From the NCBI RefSeq assembly GCF_032051675.1, contig NZ_CP116968.1, positions 2,480,001 through 2,544,000 of the forward strand: a stretch of 64,000 nucleotides of DNA. The letters run 5' to 3'. Numbering within the stretch: position 1 is the first letter of the stretch; each line of letters starts with the position of its first letter. Positions 14,023 to 24,716 of the stretch are shown one piece after another. The notes below the pieces were generated by a model. That model saw only the letters and a list, made by a program, of their open reading frames with translations. It searched no databases and was not told where the DNA came from. Made by a program: the position numbers and the translations under genes. The DNA comes from Candidatus Nitrospira neomarina (GTDB lineage Bacteria; Nitrospirota; Nitrospiria; Nitrospirales; UBA8639).

Positions 14023-14937
14023 TCAGGCTGAACCGGAGCGTCGAAAAATGGTTTTTTCAGCTGAGTCGACAATGGCCAGCACACCAGGGTGTTTAAGGCG
14101 TCGCTCAGCCGAGATGGCATAGAATTGCTCTCGGATACCTGAAACGATTCCGATTTTTTGCACCGCATATTGCCGGGCAATCTCTTTGGCCATGACAGCC
14201 GATCCCGGGAAAATGCCTTGGCCGGCCCCTCCGAATGCCTTCATGGTGGCACTATCTTCAAATTCCCCGATCACTCTGGGAACGATTCCAATGCGTGCGA
14301 ACCACTCATCCATCCCACGACGAAGTATCGAATTACTCGTCGGCAGGAGAAATGGGGCTCCGGTTAACGATTTGGGAAACCCTTTTCGATATTTCGCCGC
14401 AATTTTTTTCATCGCAAATACGGCCACCTCTGATTCTCCCAGAAGGTGACTGTGCCCTTGGATTTTGACAGTGGCGGGAATGGGGGTATCCGCCAACACG
14501 AGATCCAACGCATGCAAGGCTAATTCTCCTAATAACCTGTCCAACCGTCCCTCCCAACAGACAATTTGCACAGGCTCGCGAAGGGCATATACCGATTCCA
14601 GCAGTTTATAGGCCACCATTTTGGGGACCACTTCGGCAATGCCTACCACTAATTTCAAAGGACGATGAGTCGGTCGACCTTTCAAAAGGTTGGTAAATTC
14701 CTGCCCCAGGGAAAAGATTTCCTCGGCATACCGGTAGGCCACCTGTCCCATTTCCGTCAAGACCAGGGTTCGTCCGACCCGATTAAACAATTTTTCTCCC
14801 AGGGACTCTTCCAACGCACGAAGCTGAGCACTCAACGCAGGTTGGGAGAGGTTCAGCTCTTCACAAGCACGCTTAATGCTGCCTTCACGCGCGATCACCC
14901 AGAAATACAGAAGATGATGGTAATTTAACCATTCCAT
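14023..14937 (-). CDS. LysR-family transcriptional regulator (NhaR type)
   Basis: From the ATG at 14937 (in-frame ATGs also at 14949 and 14973) the protein has about 304 residues, the usual LysR length. The N-terminus WLNYHHLLYFWVIAREGSI and LSQPALSAQLRALEESLG form the winged helix-turn-helix. The YHHLLYFW opening is characteristic of the NhaR subgroup, which answers to sodium or alkaline conditions in enterobacteria. A periplasmic-binding-like effector domain follows (LKLVVGIAEVVPKMVA, LLGELALHALDLVLAD). It is transcribed away from the HlyD-TolC-ABC operon and shares a 260-base region with it, so it very likely regulates that operon. The ligand is unknown. Confidence 0.9.
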   Translation of the reverse strand: MEWLNYHHLLYFWVIAREGSIKRACEELNLSQPALSAQLRALEESLGEKLFNRVGRTLVLTEMGQVAYRYAEEIFSLGQEFTNLLKGRPTHRPLKLVVGIAEVVPKMVAYKLLESVYALREPVQIVCWEGRLDRLLGELALHALDLVLADTPIPATVKIQGHSHLLGESEVAVFAMKKIAAKYRKGFPKSLTGAPFLLPTSNSILRRGMDEWFARIGIVPRVIGEFEDSATMKAFGGAGQGIFPGSAVMAKEIARQYAVQKIGIVSGIREQFYAISAERRLKHPGVLAIVDSAEKTIFRRSGSA

Positions 14938-15119
14938 GTACGGAAGCATACATTCAGTTTTTAAATGATTCAAGAAGAAAATATGAATTTGTTTATGTCA
15001 ACAACCAATGTTGATGAGGGGATATTGAAGAGTATGCCGGGACTTGGCTTTGCGATCAGAAGACCCTAATATGACATATCCGATTAAGATATCGATGAAC
15101 TACATTCCGGTATATGATC

Positions 15120-15199: not shown

Positions 15200-16627
15200 A
15201 TGGCTCTTGAGCGTTTACCCACAAAATCATCCGGCCCTCAACTCGTTTCTCGCCAGGATCTTTCTTCGCTACGCGTCACTGGTCGTCCTCCACAGTATGA
15301 ATCATGGGCGGCGGTGAAAATTCCGACGAAATTGTACACCGCGACCCGTCTCGCCACCGGTTGTTTTCTTCTGTTCACTCTTATTCTTGTCTTCGTTCCA
15401 TGGACCCAAACGATAACCGCTCAGGGCCAACTATCGGCCTATTCCCCTGCCGAACGACCGCAGGAAGTTCATGCTCCCATAGAAGGGCGCATCATGACCT
15501 GGAAAATCAACGAAGGGGTTATGGTACAAACAGGTGATCTCCTGCTTGAACTTGCCGATGTCGATCCCAAATTTCTTGCTCCCGATCTGTTGTCACGCCT
15601 GGACCAATCCAGGGTGGCTCTAGAGGAGAGACGGGAAGCGGCGTTATCCCGGGCCCAGTTATTGGAGCAACAAATCGAGGAAATGAAAAAGCTGAGCGAC
15701 GCGGCGACTCGCTCGGCCGATTCCCGGGTGCAGGAAGCCTCCCGGCGGATTCAAAGTGTCGAACAACGGTTGGCGGCCGCAAAAATATCAGTCCAGACGG
15801 CTCAACTGAACTTACAGCGCTCGCAGGTGTTAGAAGCCGAAGGCCTCCTCTCCCGGCGGGATCTGGAGCTGGCCATTCAAGCGGAAGCGGCCGCTCAAGC
15901 CGAACTCAGAGCCAGTGAAGCGGCTCTTCAGGAAGTGGGCCAATCACGACAGGCCCTGTCGTATGGGCGGACTCAAATTGAAGCAGAGCTGGTTCAACGA
16001 ATTCTTGACACCCGCTCACAACGGGCCTCGGCGCTGGCGGAAGCCGCCAATGCCTCGAAGGAATTGGCCGACCTGGCTTTGACGCAGTCCAATGCTGTGC
16101 AGCGACGGGCAGCCAGCCGTATTACCGCCCCCATGGATGGGACAGTGGTGCGAATGGCCCGGGTGGGACCTGGTGAAATCGTACATCCCGGCGATCCGTT
16201 GGTCACGATCGTTCCAACCACCGCCACTCGTGCCGTGGAGATGTGGGCGGACGCCCTGGATGCCCCACTGCTCAAACAGGATCGAAACGTGCTTCTGATG
16301 TTTCAGGGCATACCAGCCATTCCCTTACCATCCTGGCCTGAATTGATGGCGGGCACGTTCGATGGCCGCATTCGTGTCGTGGATCAGACATCGGACGCAC
16401 AAGGTCGCTTCCGGTTCTGGGTGGTTCCAGATCCGGCAGGCTCACCTTGGCCGCCGCAAAATCAAGTCCGGCAAGGCACCCAAGTGATGGGTTGGGTCCT
16501 GTTGAACCGCGTACCTCTCTGGTATGAACTTTGGCGCCGCGTGAACCTTTTCCCGGCTGACTACCAGGAACATGGCATAGCTTTGCCACAGTCCATTCTT
16601 CCCAAGGCCGGAAGACCCGGAAAATAA
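15200..16627 (+). CDS. HlyD-type periplasmic adaptor (membrane fusion protein)
   Basis: The 475-residue protein has a short cytoplasmic N-terminus, one transmembrane helix (GCFLLFTLILVFVPW, about residues 51-70), a lipoyl-like half motif (VHAPIEGRIMTWKINEGVMV), and a long alpha-hairpin with coiled-coil character (about 130-300). A second lipoyl half and beta-barrel follow (RITAPMDGTVVRMARVGPGE). This is the standard layout of adaptors that join an inner-membrane transporter to a TolC channel. It is the first gene of a three-gene operon with TolC and an ABC protein, as in type I secretion systems. The ribosome site is weak. Confidence 0.92.
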   Translation: MALERLPTKSSGPQLVSRQDLSSLRVTGRPPQYESWAAVKIPTKLYTATRLATGCFLLFTLILVFVPWTQTITAQGQLSAYSPAERPQEVHAPIEGRIMTWKINEGVMVQTGDLLLELADVDPKFLAPDLLSRLDQSRVALEERREAALSRAQLLEQQIEEMKKLSDAATRSADSRVQEASRRIQSVEQRLAAAKISVQTAQLNLQRSQVLEAEGLLSRRDLELAIQAEAAAQAELRASEAALQEVGQSRQALSYGRTQIEAELVQRILDTRSQRASALAEAANASKELADLALTQSNAVQRRAASRITAPMDGTVVRMARVGPGEIVHPGDPLVTIVPTTATRAVEMWADALDAPLLKQDRNVLLMFQGIPAIPLPSWPELMAGTFDGRIRVVDQTSDAQGRFRFWVVPDPAGSPWPPQNQVRQGTQVMGWVLLNRVPLWYELWRRVNLFPADYQEHGIALPQSILPKAGRPGK

Positions 16628-16685
16628 CTTCTACTTGGTAGATCCCAAACCATTCACTCTCGGCCATCACAAGGGAGGACCACCC

Positions 16686-18128
16686 ATGGCAAGACCACTT
16701 GTAATCCTGTTAGGCCTCTTGGGGATTTTAGAACTGCTTGCGCCCCTTCTCCGGGCTGCTCCGGGACCGGACGTCACGCCTACGCCAAACCAGCAATCCC
16801 GATCGCTACATCTGGAAACCGTGCTCACACTCGTGGAAACCCAACATCCTCTTTTGCATGGAAGCCGGACGGAAAAACTGGAAGCGCAAGGCAAATTATT
16901 AAAAGCCATGGGAGCATTTGAACCGACCTTGGTCAATGATTGGGAATTGGAACGGCTCGTGAAAGACGGGCAGACCAAGAGTGTGGGGTTTAACGACACG
17001 CTGATCCAGGCCCGCCATCCCTGGGGAATTCAAGGGTTTGCAGGCTGGCGCACCGGTATCGGAGACGTAGAGGTGGCCGACCTTGGAGTTCAACGCACGA
17101 ATCAACCTCTCCTCGGTATCGTTTTGCCTCTCCTTCGGGGCTTGGGAACCAACCCCGAACGGGGCGAATTGGAAAAATCCAAACTCGCCGAACAGGAAGC
17201 GACCCTGAACATTCAACAAACACGTCAGGACCTGTATTTGGGTGCGGCGACGCAATTTTGGAAATGGGTCGGGTCAGGGAAGATTGTGGTACTGCAGCAG
17301 GAAGCCTTGGACGTGGCCAAGGCCCGTCTGCAGCAACTCACCCGTCAGGCTGCGGCAGGGGCTGTCGCAGAATTTGACGTCACTGAAGCCCACCAGGAAG
17401 TCCAACGTCGATTGGAAAACCTCATTAAGTCCAAACGGGAAGCCGAACAGGAACAGTTCAAACTGTCCCTGTTTACCTGGAACAATAATGCCCTTCTCTC
17501 CTTCGACCGGTATTCGATCCCTGAATTCCCGGCGTTCAATGCGTCAAGCCAGCAGGCAGGAGGAGATCCCGAAACCGAGCTGGCCCAACAGCGCCGACCC
17601 GAAATTCTTCAAGTGTCCCTTGAAGCCGCACGTAACAACATTGATCTTGGCGTGGCCAAAAACAACTTGCTCCCTGATCTTCGTGCGGAAGCCGAACCCA
17701 CACGCAAACCCGGAGAGTTTGTGCTGGGGCTGGGGTACCGATTTGGCGTGCAATTGAGTTTTCCATTTCTTCAACAGGACGCCACCGGCCAAAAGCTTCA
17801 ATTAGAGGCCAAGGCTGAACGATTAGTGTGGCTACAACGGTATCGGGTACAGCAGGTGGCCCTGGATATCGAAAACGCCCGCTCGGCCCTGGACCGGGCG
17901 AAAGAGCGCATAGAGGCGGCATCTCAATCCCTCGCCTATGCCCGTTCCCTGGTGAAGGGTGAACGAAAGCGCTTTCAAATGGGTGCCACGAATCTACTGT
18001 TTGTCAATCTCCGGGAGCGCAATGTGATCGAAGCCCAAATCATTCACATTCAGGCACAGGCCGAATATCAACAAGCCAAAGCTTTTTATTCATGGGCTAT
18101 CGGCGAATGGACGCAACCTGTAACCTGA
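16686..18128 (+). CDS. TolC-family outer membrane efflux protein
   Basis: The start at 16686 is supported by GGGAGGA a few bases upstream; the frame could extend to 16635 but then lacks a clean signal peptide. The 480-residue precursor begins with a signal peptide (MARPLVILLGLLGILELL). The rest is two TolC-type repeats rich in long helices, for example LYLGAATQFWKWVGSGKIVV, AKARLQQLTRQAAAGAVAEF and, in the second repeat, SLAYARSLVKGERKRFQMGA. It forms the trimeric outer-membrane duct of the HlyD-containing export complex. It ends 18 bases before the ABC gene. Confidence 0.9.
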   Translation: MARPLVILLGLLGILELLAPLLRAAPGPDVTPTPNQQSRSLHLETVLTLVETQHPLLHGSRTEKLEAQGKLLKAMGAFEPTLVNDWELERLVKDGQTKSVGFNDTLIQARHPWGIQGFAGWRTGIGDVEVADLGVQRTNQPLLGIVLPLLRGLGTNPERGELEKSKLAEQEATLNIQQTRQDLYLGAATQFWKWVGSGKIVVLQQEALDVAKARLQQLTRQAAAGAVAEFDVTEAHQEVQRRLENLIKSKREAEQEQFKLSLFTWNNNALLSFDRYSIPEFPAFNASSQQAGGDPETELAQQRRPEILQVSLEAARNNIDLGVAKNNLLPDLRAEAEPTRKPGEFVLGLGYRFGVQLSFPFLQQDATGQKLQLEAKAERLVWLQRYRVQQVALDIENARSALDRAKERIEAASQSLAYARSLVKGERKRFQMGATNLLFVNLRERNVIEAQIIHIQAQAEYQQAKAFYSWAIGEWTQPVT

Positions 18129-18146: not shown

Positions 18147-19811
18147 ATGCACAATGGCTCTCCCCATTCCGAACGATCCTTGAATCAGGAAGTGCTTCAA
18201 CATGTGGCGACCTTTTTCAGACAGGAACGCCAAATCCTGCTCACGATCATCATGTATGCCTTGGCCGTGGGCCTCTTTTCCTTGATTGTTCCTGTCACCG
18301 TACAGGAACTGGTGAATACCTTCGCTTTCGCCATTCAACCAATCATGGTGGTCACCTTGGTCAGTATCATGGCCGGTATTCTTTTATTTGTCGGGATTTT
18401 CAAAGCCCTTCAATTTTTCGCCACGGATCTTCTTGAACGCCGTATCTTTGTCCGGTTCACTCTGGCCTTTGCGCGAACCTTGCCATCGATTCAGGAAACT
18501 CAATTTCGGAGTGAATACGCCAGCCGGTTTTTTGAAATTATCTTTATGCAGCGAGCCGTCGCCGCGTTATTGGTGGATCTGACCAATGTGGCAGTCGGAG
18601 GAGTCATCGGCATGACCTTGCTCGCCTTGTATCACCCGTATTTTCTTTTCTTTGATCTTCTCCTCTTGCTCGCGGTGGGCTTCATTGCCATATTGGGGCA
18701 CGGAGGACTCCAGGCTACCCTACACATGTCCGAGGCAAAATATGACACCTACCATTGGTTTCAGGAGATTGCCGACAACCTCAGCCATTTTAAATCCAGC
18801 CTGAGCCGCGACCTTATACTGCAAAAAGCCGATTCCCTGGCCCATACGTACGTCAATACCCGACAAGCGCGTTTTCGCATTCTTGTTCGACAATACATCG
18901 GATCCCTGCTCCTTCAGGTGATTCTGCACACCGGCCTGTTGGGCACGGCAGGCTGGTTGATGAGCCAGGGGCAACTGACGCTCGGTCAACTCGTCGCTGC
19001 GGAAGTCATTATTGCCACCCTCCTGTTAAATCTGGAATCGGTGATCAAACGCACGTATGTCATCTTTTATTTTTTAACGGCCTTGACCGAAATTCATCAT
19101 ATTTTTTCTCTCCCCAAGGATCAAAGACCGACAACTCAATTTGTCCAGCTTCCGGCCACTGGCTCACCACAAGGATTGGCACTTTCCATCTCCCATGTAC
19201 GGGGCCTGCCCCCCCCATGGCCACCTACGCTGGAACTTAACATGGACCTTGCCCCGAGTGAAAAATGGGCCATCGTCTGTGTCACGGAATCCCAACGGCT
19301 GACAGTGTCCAGGCTGCTGGCCGGATTGGATCATCCACCGCAAGGATCCATCCGGTACAATGGCATCGATGTCCGGGATCTCCACCCCGATGACGTCAAT
19401 GAAACCCGCGGCCTCGTCTTGAGTCGACATATGACCCTCTTTGAGGCCACCCTGATGGAAAATATCACCCTGAGACGAAAAAATCTGGCCACAGAAGATT
19501 TGTTGTGGGTTTTGGATTTGGTGGGCTTACAGGAGGAAATCGAACACATTCCTGACGGATTACAAGGTATGGTTCAGTACGGCGGAAAAAACTTTTCTCC
19601 AAGTCAAACGATTCAAATTTTATTGGCCCGTGCCCTGATCGCCCGTCCGAAATTGGTCATTATCGATGGGGGTCTTCATGAAATTTTTGCTTCCCGGAGG
19701 GAGTCAATTCTGAACGCGATTTGCGACACGAAATGTCCTTGGACCATTGTTATCGTTACTACCGATTCCAATATTAAAAAATTTGTGCAGCACAGTATTG
19801 TATTGGAATAA
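18147..19811 (+). CDS. ABC exporter-like protein with a catalytically degenerate nucleotide-binding domain
   Basis: A 554-residue half-transporter. Residues 30-320 form an ABC type-1 transmembrane domain with about six helices; no N-terminal C39 peptidase is present. Residues 345-554 align in layout with an ABC ATPase, but every motif is altered. The Walker A position reads CVTESQRLT (378-386) with no GxxGxGK[ST]. The Q-loop position reads LSRHMTLFEAT without Gln. The signature reads FSPSQ instead of LSGGQ. Walker B reads LVIIDGGLHEI with Gly in place of the catalytic Glu, and the H-loop reads VTTDS with no His. The frame is intact, so this looks like a maintained pseudo-ATPase. AAGGA precedes the ATG. 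It ends the operon. Confidence 0.9.
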   Translation: MHNGSPHSERSLNQEVLQHVATFFRQERQILLTIIMYALAVGLFSLIVPVTVQELVNTFAFAIQPIMVVTLVSIMAGILLFVGIFKALQFFATDLLERRIFVRFTLAFARTLPSIQETQFRSEYASRFFEIIFMQRAVAALLVDLTNVAVGGVIGMTLLALYHPYFLFFDLLLLLAVGFIAILGHGGLQATLHMSEAKYDTYHWFQEIADNLSHFKSSLSRDLILQKADSLAHTYVNTRQARFRILVRQYIGSLLLQVILHTGLLGTAGWLMSQGQLTLGQLVAAEVIIATLLLNLESVIKRTYVIFYFLTALTEIHHIFSLPKDQRPTTQFVQLPATGSPQGLALSISHVRGLPPPWPPTLELNMDLAPSEKWAIVCVTESQRLTVSRLLAGLDHPPQGSIRYNGIDVRDLHPDDVNETRGLVLSRHMTLFEATLMENITLRRKNLATEDLLWVLDLVGLQEEIEHIPDGLQGMVQYGGKNFSPSQTIQILLARALIARPKLVIIDGGLHEIFASRRESILNAICDTKCPWTIVIVTTDSNIKKFVQHSIVLE

Positions 19812-20256: not shown

Positions 20257-20592
20257 ATGATTGCAAACATTGAAGACCGCGAATTTGATGGGATAATCGA
20301 AAGGTCGACCGTGCCGGTTTTGGTGGAATTTTGGCAACCAGGCTGTGGACATTGCCACGCTCTGGCCAAAGAATTGGAGCACATCCAGGAAGATCTTGGG
20401 AAACGCCTTCTCATTCTCGCAATGAACGTTCAGGAGAATTTCCTCATTCCCGGCGAATTAGAGATTCAATCTCTTCCCACCTTAGCCCTATTTGTGAATG
20501 GGGAATTCAAGCAATTCATTGGTGGAGTCGGCAAGAAAGACCAGATCCTCGAGCAAGTCTTTCCTTGGCTTGAAGATTCACACCCGGGCTAA
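20257..20592 (+). CDS. Thioredoxin-family protein
   Basis: A 111-residue single-domain thioredoxin fold. VLVEFWQPGCGHCHALAKEL carries the redox pair Cys30-Gly-His-Cys33, and LEIQSLPTLALFVNG contains the cis-proline loop. The active site is CGHC, as in protein disulfide isomerases, rather than the CGPC of housekeeping thioredoxins, which usually gives a more oxidising couple. There is no signal peptide, so it is probably cytoplasmic. No strong ribosome site precedes the ATG. It lies near a lipoprotein glutathione peroxidase and may reduce it or related peroxidases; that link is inferred. Confidence 0.85.
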   Translation: MIANIEDREFDGIIERSTVPVLVEFWQPGCGHCHALAKELEHIQEDLGKRLLILAMNVQENFLIPGELEIQSLPTLALFVNGEFKQFIGGVGKKDQILEQVFPWLEDSHPG

Positions 20593-23351: not shown

Positions 23352-24716
23352 TTACTCTTTCACGTACTCAGGTAACACTATTTTTTGACCTGGAAGAATA
23401 ATATCCGGATCGCTGATTTGTGGGTTATGCCGACGGAGCCATTCCACATACTGCCGGCTTGAGGACCCATAGGCTTCATTGGCAATTTGACTCAGATTAT
23501 CCCCTTCCTTGACCGACCTGGTAATTGATGAACCCTGGCTTGGCTTTGAAGGTACTTCCCTGTGATCCCTGAGTGTACCATCAGACTTGGAGGTTCCTAT
23601 TACCTTTTCGACGGATTTTTTCGTCATACCGGAATCCACTCTTCCTTCATCCGCATGAGAAATGGGTCTTTCAATTTGAGAGACAGATGACGCCATAGGG
23701 ATAGACTGCTCTTCAAGTTGACCTATGTTTTCCTGAGACATTTTTTCAGAGGAGGTCGCCCTCGCATTCTGGCTGTCACGTTCGCTCAGGCCTATTTGGG
23801 ATACTCCCACGTTTCCAGGAAGGAATATCGGGCTTAATAAAAAAGCCCCAATTGCCAAAAGTATGACCACCGCAACACCGACCGCCCACTTCACAAGATA
23901 AGATGAACGGGAACCTTCCATGTCAGCAAGGATTTCCCGCACCTCGCTTACAGAAACGGGTTTTTGTTGCCTGCCATATCCAGTGATCAGGGCGTTATCG
24001 CAAAGAATATTAATTCTTCGTGGAATGCCCTGAGCCTCGCGAATAATCAGTTTCATGGCTCCTTGCGTAAATAAAGGCGTACCGGTGGATGAAGACAGTG
24101 CAATCCGATGTTCAATATAAGCTTGGCTCTCTTTCGGCTGCAACGGCTGTATCGTTGCACGAAGGGCAATGCGCTGGTTCAAAGACTTCAAGGTAGGATG
24201 ATTCAGTAATGTTGTTAATTCTGGCTGCCCGATTAAAACAATTTGGATGAGCTTGTCTGTGGATGTTTCCAAATTAGAGAGCAGCCGTAACTGCTCCAAT
24301 GTTTTAACCGGCATATTTTGAGCTTCGTCAATGACCAGCACCACCGTGCTGTCCGACCGGTATTCCTGAATCAATGCTTCCTGAAGTTGATTGACCATCT
24401 CCGCCGAATCATCCTGAGACGGAACAAGGTCAAGGCTTCGAAATATGTCGGTCAGAAGCCCATGAAATGACAAAACTGGATTAAGAATGTAGACTGTTTT
24501 TTGTTTTCGGTCACTCGTCTTTTCAAGATACGCACGAATAATCGTCGTTTTTCCTACGCCGACCTCGCCATAAATGGCGACAAAACCTTTTCTTCTCTCA
24601 ATTCCATAAATAATAGCCCCCATCGCTTCCTTATGGCTGGGGCTTAGATAAAGGAAATTTGGGTCAGGAGTAGTATGAAATGGTTCTTTTTTGAGACCGT
24701 AAAACGCTAAATACAT
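23352..24716 (-). CDS. ExeA-like AAA+ ATPase with transmembrane segment and LysM domain
   Basis: The 454-residue protein has the ExeA/GspA-like start (YLAFYGLKKEPFHTTPDP), Walker A GEVGVGKTT, Walker B VVLVIDEAQN and arginine-rich sensor regions. Around residues 275-297 is a transmembrane helix (WAVGVAVVILLAIGAFLL). A low-complexity linker follows, then a C-terminal LysM domain (VKEGDNLSQIANEAYG to PGQKIVLPEYVKE) that would bind peptidoglycan in the periplasm. In XrtA/PEP-CTERM-type EPS loci a similar ATPase accompanies Wzz and kinase genes. It probably links cytoplasmic ATP use to a cell-wall-anchored export site. It is 16 bases downstream of the Wzz gene. Confidence 0.9.
   Translation of the reverse strand: MYLAFYGLKKEPFHTTPDPNFLYLSPSHKEAMGAIIYGIERRKGFVAIYGEVGVGKTTIIRAYLEKTSDRKQKTVYILNPVLSFHGLLTDIFRSLDLVPSQDDSAEMVNQLQEALIQEYRSDSTVVLVIDEAQNMPVKTLEQLRLLSNLETSTDKLIQIVLIGQPELTTLLNHPTLKSLNQRIALRATIQPLQPKESQAYIEHRIALSSSTGTPLFTQGAMKLIIREAQGIPRRINILCDNALITGYGRQQKPVSVSEVREILADMEGSRSSYLVKWAVGVAVVILLAIGAFLLSPIFLPGNVGVSQIGLSERDSQNARATSSEKMSQENIGQLEEQSIPMASSVSQIERPISHADEGRVDSGMTKKSVEKVIGTSKSDGTLRDHREVPSKPSQGSSITRSVKEGDNLSQIANEAYGSSSRQYVEWLRRHNPQISDPDIILPGQKIVLPEYVKE

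Follow-up and report, generated by a model that had tools for sequence, protein, structure and literature searches.

Within the window, by which we mean the whole 64-kb stretch of DNA that was analysed, three genes on the forward strand form an operon that runs from an HlyD-family adaptor through a TolC-family channel to an ABC gene, which is third and last. The adaptor, a periplasmic protein of 475 aa (15200..16627, +), was recognised by PF13437 and by a sub-threshold match to TIGR01843, and the outer-membrane channel (16635..18128, +; 497 aa as listed, with relatives suggesting a start at the ATG at 16686) by PF02321 at 1e-31. Both are conserved neighbours of the ABC gene, and the co-encoding of an HlyD-type adaptor with a TolC channel (15200-18128) is the arrangement of type I secretion. 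The ABC gene itself (18147..19811, +) starts with ATG and encodes 554 aa with no internal stops; the open frame, coordinates and strand given in a preliminary description of this DNA were right. From the reading frame, Pfam, matches to HlyB/PCAT/PrtD-type exporters and an AlphaFold model, we assign the product as a degenerate ABC exporter half-transporter, with a transmembrane domain (TMD) at residues 1-335 and a nucleotide-binding domain (NBD) at residues 336-554.

A divergent gene upstream of the operon (14023..14973, -) encodes a LysR-type regulator that scores 231 bits against the NhaR equivalog model NF008284 (cut-off 219) and is a neighbour in many relatives. NhaR in E. coli responds to Na+. 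An NhaR-type model was also the best one for the LysR gene beside the family in Nitrospinota (L055) and at three Pseudomonadota loci (L153, L206, L209), and the LysR genes at L171, L203 and L205 are OxyR/CynR-like. A cytochrome-bd-like oxidase pair and a photolyase-related gene also lie upstream of the operon. On the downstream side are a thioredoxin-like gene, a glutathione-peroxidase gene and a polysaccharide cluster. The thioredoxin-like gene (20257..20592, +; PF00085, with a CGHC motif) is a neighbour in the closest relatives only, and probably lies outside the system.

The ABC protein has the predicted fold of an exporter, with TMD and NBD both present in the AlphaFold model (monomer; pLDDT 76, pTM 0.52) and a weak match to PF00005 (ABC_tran) that nonetheless exceeds the cut-off (29 bits against 25). 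The structure closest to the model is HlyB in the HlyB/HlyD complex (8dck; VIA-align Z 28, with 530 residues aligned at an rmsd of 10.6), and PCAT1 (8vpa) scored a Z of 26.9. By curated models the protein fails: the top NCBIfam model, TIGR03796, gave 125 bits against a cut-off of 853, and the other matches (TIGR03375/01842/01846), which are to type I secretion and peptidase-type exporters, were all far under cut-off. In the phmmer alignment, residues 364-536 align with the NBDs of P-glycoprotein-type proteins while the motif residues are replaced. The retention of the fold-level layout that the preliminary description reported is borne out here, as TLFEATLMENI (430-440) and LLARALIARPK (492-502) align normally with these NBDs.

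That description had also held that Walker A, the Q-loop, the signature, the catalytic glutamate and the H-loop were all replaced, and every string that it quoted was found at the expected position of the NBD. At Walker A the protein reads CVTESQRLT (residues 378-386; 19278..19304, +), with Arg384 in place of the invariant lysine, and the Q-loop glutamine is Ser426 (19422..19424, +) in both our alignment and that of phmmer. The position of the LSGGQ signature is occupied by FSPSQ (residues 483-487; 19593..19607, +). Walker B is LVIIDGG (19653..19673, +), in which Gly508 replaces the catalytic glutamate (IDGG, 506-509); among 118 close relatives this position is glycine in 116 and serine in 2. 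The H-loop position reads TTD (residues 538-540; 19758..19766, +), with Thr539 for the histidine, which occurs there in none of the 118. All that is left of the motif residues is the Walker B aspartate (D507) and one serine of the signature, and the protein thus lacks what marks an ATP-driven exporter: Walker A, Walker B with its catalytic glutamate, the signature and the H-loop.

This loss is a property of a clade. It is common to 117 further sequences from Nitrospirota, Nitrospinota and Nitrococcus, and close homologues with normal motifs, which would have pointed to a recent pseudogene or a sequence error, were not seen among the 118 close relatives. We assembled a family set of 146 members from Nitrospirota, Nitrospinota, Pseudomonadota and Bacteroidota, compared it with 19 ordinary exporters encoded in the members' own genomes or in related ones, and scored four core motifs (GK of Walker A, DE of Walker B, SxG of the signature, and the H-loop histidine). 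All four were kept in 18 of the 19 ordinary exporters; in the family, 115 members kept none, 30 kept one and a single member (L149) kept two. Erosion is uneven among motifs. In 115 aligned close sequences LSGGQ and the H-loop histidine are absent throughout, the catalytic glutamate is replaced by glycine in 113 and by serine in 2, and the Walker A lysine is kept in 81, the remainder, including the window protein, having Arg, Gly, Cys or Thr. The Walker B aspartate is kept in 86 of the 118 close relatives, and Walker A GK is intact in 26 of the 146 members (for example NSTGKTT in L041 and TSTGKST in L037), some of which may, judging by these residues, still bind nucleotide. The NBDs of 28 distant members from Gammaproteobacteria, Sphingomonadales and Bacteroidota, which came from the Gammaproteobacteria and Pseudomonadota samples and from plasmids, are mostly even more eroded. 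The family also includes SARO_RS19820 of the laboratory strain Novosphingobium aromaticivorans DSM 12444, whose NBD is likewise eroded. Distant members with one motif include L152 (H-loop histidine), L168, L171, L203 and L204 (an LSxGE-like signature), and L164, L169 and L210 (Walker A). Two Pseudomonadota members are less eroded: L149 (6586-8655) keeps Walker A and a DE Walker B, and L210 (4354-6012) keeps Walker A and has a serine at the position of His163. The order in which the motifs were lost may be readable from these two.

Full-length, open orthologues at 96-37% identity occur in families f1 and f3 of the same order, and further relatives, in Nitrospira, Nitrospinaceae and Nitrococcus mobilis, came to light when 84,980 species genomes were scanned. 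When a TMD profile was run on 295 Nitrospirota genomes, 77 were positive, every one of them in f1 or f3, with no intermediates between E values of 1e-65 and the 1e-25 limit. In a maximum-likelihood tree built from TMD columns alone, all sampled family members are separated from the 19 ordinary exporters by a branch whose SH-aLRT support is 100%, and the sequences of Nitrospirota, Nitrospinota and Nitrococcus form a 100% subclade; the tool warned that some long branches meet in this tree. The window protein belongs to the family by each of its marks: a place in the TMD clade with Glu286, His163 and Gln249, the loss of the ATPase motifs, and HlyD/TolC neighbours. We found the family in at least four bacterial phyla, across which the TMD is the best conserved part; neither this spread nor the HlyD and TolC partners had featured in the preliminary description. 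A search of viral contigs found no relatives, and the anti-phage defence models that we ran gave no match.

The NBD has a dN/dS of 0.085, 0.114 and 0.110 against three relatives, and the TMD one of 0.091-0.122. Because values near 0.1 are like those of the TMD, we regard the NBD as maintained; by this sequence measure, it is kept as a domain by purifying selection throughout a family in which the residues for hydrolysis are gone. The proposal in the preliminary description of a maintained pseudo-ATPase is thus strongly supported, by the clade-wide loss, the open frames and an NBD dN/dS of about 0.09-0.11, and we consider the family as such well supported.

The first relatives that we met, in Nitrospira, Nitrospina and Nitrococcus, suggested a tie to nitrite oxidation, and the genome from which the window derives has three nxrB copies and is therefore, by inference, that of a nitrite oxidiser. 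A strict link was rejected. Several near-complete genomes that carry NXR do not have the gene (G022, G023, G029, G035), and in Nitrospinota nxrB was found in 3 of 7 gene-positive and 22 of 70 gene-negative genomes, a comparison qualified by the frequent loss of nxr from MAGs. Members of the wider family are also present in organisms that are not nitrite oxidisers. Any association with nitrite oxidation is at most one of lineage.

The operon context of the gene is widely kept. A search of the 5.5 kb around each of 159 copies (from the loci that were fetched, a few of them twice) found both an HlyD and a TolC gene for 141; 10 of the others are limited by contig ends and 8 are without one or both genes. 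Tandem copies are frequent in Nitrospira (for example at L036 and L041), and both copies are without the catalytic glutamate, the signature and the H-loop. Several loci differ from that of the window. In the Nitrospirales genus coded g12 (L021, L022, L023, L046, L047), two or three TolC genes precede the ABC gene, which is followed by HlyD. On the Sphingobium plasmid pHAL16 the operon (L166, 1362-8156) lies 3' of dabA, which encodes an inorganic carbon transporter subunit (PF10070, 731 bits). L038 (9399-11093; genome G053) is a single paralogue, followed by a family-2 glycosyltransferase gene and a PMT-like mannosyltransferase gene. L037 (8834-10513) and L042 (9178-10857) are single Nitrospira paralogues that have no HlyD or TolC gene; their neighbours encode a sigma-54 response regulator and a PAS histidine kinase, a setting that hints at a role in sensing.

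Although the motifs of the NBD are lost, the TMD has residues of its own that set the family apart. In a comparison of 21 divergent members, seven columns of the TMD do not vary, including those of Gln53, His163, Trp204 and Glu286. Glu286 (in GQLVAAE at the start of TM6; 19002..19004, +) is glutamate in 141 of the 146 members and in none of the 19 ordinary exporters, which most often have asparagine. The five exceptions have glutamine and are exactly the Nitrospira members L021, L022, L023, L046 and L047 of the g12 group. His163 (18633..18635, +), within YHP in the turn between TM3 and TM4, is histidine in 145 of 146 members and 2 of 19 ordinary exporters, and Gln249 in TM5 (18891..18893, +) is glutamine in 145 of 146 and 0 of 19. 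Trp204 is a further mark of the family that is nearly absent from ordinary exporters. Gln53 in TM1 (18303..18305, +) does not vary among those family members that have a residue in this column, and is present in 8 of the 19 ordinary exporters as well. The contrast in residues between the family and the ordinary exporters gave Fisher values of about 1e-20 or less, which, given that the sequences are related, show no more than that these residues are marks of the clade. The AlphaFold monomer places Glu286 some two turns along TM6 (helix 279-320), and His163 at the TM3-TM4 turn, between helices 135-162 and 166-183; exporter topology would place both on the periplasmic half, with Gln53 of TM1 near the same level. 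Glu286 was the one family-wide membrane glutamate that we found, and a ladder of several such residues was not seen.

The preliminary description had offered two readings of the degenerate ATPase: the inactive half of a heterodimer, or a transporter driven by another energy source. We favour the second: the pumps of the family are probably powered by a source other than their own hydrolysis of ATP. We propose that the window protein is the inner-membrane part of a tripartite, type-I-secretion-like exporter, in which a TMD dimer of ABC descent would join the HlyD adaptor and the TolC channel. The protein would act as a homodimer with alternating access, as in other ABC exporters, and its pseudo-NBD would hold the cytoplasmic ends of the TMDs together or regulate them. 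The stroke would be powered by a proton (or sodium) gradient through protonation of Glu286, the membrane carboxylate on TM6, and His163 and Gln53 near the periplasmic side may take part. A precedent is SbmA, which has an ABC-type TMD, is driven by protons, moves like an ABC exporter and has a ladder of membrane glutamates (PMC13316013); the present protein would work in the manner of SbmA/BacA, with an ABC-type TMD driven by H+, but would export into HlyD and TolC. We give this reading, an ion-gradient-driven tripartite exporter with a homodimeric TMD and a retained pseudo-NBD, a probability of roughly 45%. The NhaR type of the divergent regulator also counts in its favour. Coupling by Glu286 is its candidate element, and the residue could instead be a contact with the substrate or with HlyD, or, because the members of the family are not independent, a mere mark of descent. 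The five Nitrospira members with glutamine at 286 are not predicted by a strictly glutamate-coupled model, and the retention of the NBD and the missing glutamate ladder count against the parallel with SbmA.

Several other explanations were weighed against the ion-gradient reading, beginning with the heterodimer. Heterodimers with degenerate halves are common (PMC7756269, a review). As the preliminary description had observed, there is no active ABC gene nearby: the 64-kb window codes for no other intact ABC NBD, and its sole GxxxxGKT match in a real ORF (at 24569, -) belongs to a protein that we named an ExeA-like ATPase on inspection of its sequence. In the 5.5 kb around each of the 159 copies we found no half-exporter whose NBD is intact, and an ORF with an active NBD is near only three loci (two distinct; two are from one genome), each time as a short stand-alone protein of 195-222 aa. 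On these searches we rejected an active partner encoded in cis. Together with the tandem copies, of which both are dead, they speak against the inactive half of a heterodimer, and that part of the preliminary description is not supported at these loci. A partner encoded elsewhere in the genome is still conceivable, as the window's own genome codes for other, ordinary ABC exporters (L173 among them), but we think it unlikely: besides the neighbourhood results, a composite site is built from one chain's Walker A and B and its partner's signature, and the window protein supplies neither half.

The main rival, because 26 members keep GK in Walker A, is an exporter or gate that binds ATP or another nucleotide and does not hydrolyse it, much as non-hydrolysing sites do in other ABC proteins; the TMD would be opened by this binding, or by the pull that HlyD/TolC and a substrate gradient exert. 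The frequent Walker B aspartate and the purifying selection on the NBD fit this reading as well, but the window protein and its relatives in f1 are without the Walker A residues, as are most proteobacterial members, and we judge it improbable, if worth keeping in mind. It is a little less probable still that the protein is not a pump at all, and serves to sense, to scaffold or to plug a channel, either in an assembly with HlyD/TolC or by signalling to a kinase. The kinase and response regulator that take the place of HlyD/TolC beside L037 and L042 would suit such a role, but the great majority of loci have a complete envelope-spanning exporter operon, and it is the TMD that is best conserved across phyla. 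An unconventional ATPase, in which displaced residues such as Asp540, the invariant Arg421 or His511 rebuild an active site, could draw on the new invariant residues of the NBD in the close clade (R421, N439, R444, D451, W454, W532); we hold it to be quite improbable, as the protein lacks its main phosphate-binding loop along with the catalytic base, and the motif positions hold different residues in distant members. A pseudogene or sequence error is effectively ruled out by the clade-wide loss in 146 open family frames, a dN/dS of about 0.1 and an operon kept across phyla, and nothing was found in its favour.

ABC transporters are textbook ATP machines, and the family raises testable questions about the roles that NBDs play besides hydrolysis and about whether ABC exporters can change to another source of energy, a switch that SbmA seems to have made. 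It is possible, though we put it at somewhat under an even chance, that a widespread class of type-I-secretion-like exporters moved from ATP to an ion gradient, keeping the ATPase as a structural or regulatory domain and coupling through a new membrane carboxylate. If so, ABC exporters would have become secondary transporters independently for a second time, SbmA being the earlier case, and for the first time in company with HlyD and TolC. In our search of the open-access literature (degenerate-NBD type I secretion, ATP-independent ABC exporters with HlyD, and NOB-shared transporters), which did not cover subscription journals, we found no description of the family. RefSeq names its members "ABC transporter ATP-binding protein" or "ABC transporter transmembrane domain-containing protein", and many genes that bear the first of these names in nitrite oxidisers, sphingomonads, Gammaproteobacteria and Bacteroidota probably do not encode ATPases. 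The five members with glutamine for Glu286 and those with a partly intact Walker A offer natural comparisons.

Among known systems, the type I secretion ABC exporters (HlyB, PrtD, LssB, PCAT1, ComA) are the nearest in full-length fold, as modelled, and in the pairing with HlyD/TolC genes. Unlike them, the family has by its sequence no working ATP site and has Glu286, His163 and Gln249, and the window protein scores far below the cut-off of every curated type I model (125 against 853 bits for the best). The window protein also has no C39/CLD domain; the distant members L149 and L164 carry an extra N-terminal stretch. With SbmA/BacA (SLiPT) the family shares an ABC-type TMD without ATP hydrolysis and one or more acidic membrane residues proposed for coupling (PMC13316013). 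The SLiPTs, however, are importers with no NBD, an extra TM0 and a ladder of several glutamates, whereas the family has HlyD/TolC, one family-wide glutamate and an NBD whose predicted fold is present and under selection, which sets it apart from proteins that consist of a SLiPT TMD alone. The heterodimeric exporters TmrAB, TM287/288, BmrCD, TAP and IrtAB likewise have degenerate motifs, in one of their chains, within an otherwise normal exporter fold, but they keep one active site, whereas here no active chain lies nearby and no member has the full set of motifs. EmrAB-TolC and similar H+-driven tripartite pumps set an HlyD-type adaptor and TolC around a gradient-driven pump, as we propose for the present system, although EmrB is an MFS protein and the window protein is ABC-derived. 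In descent the window protein is an ABC exporter, and it would work like a tripartite one.
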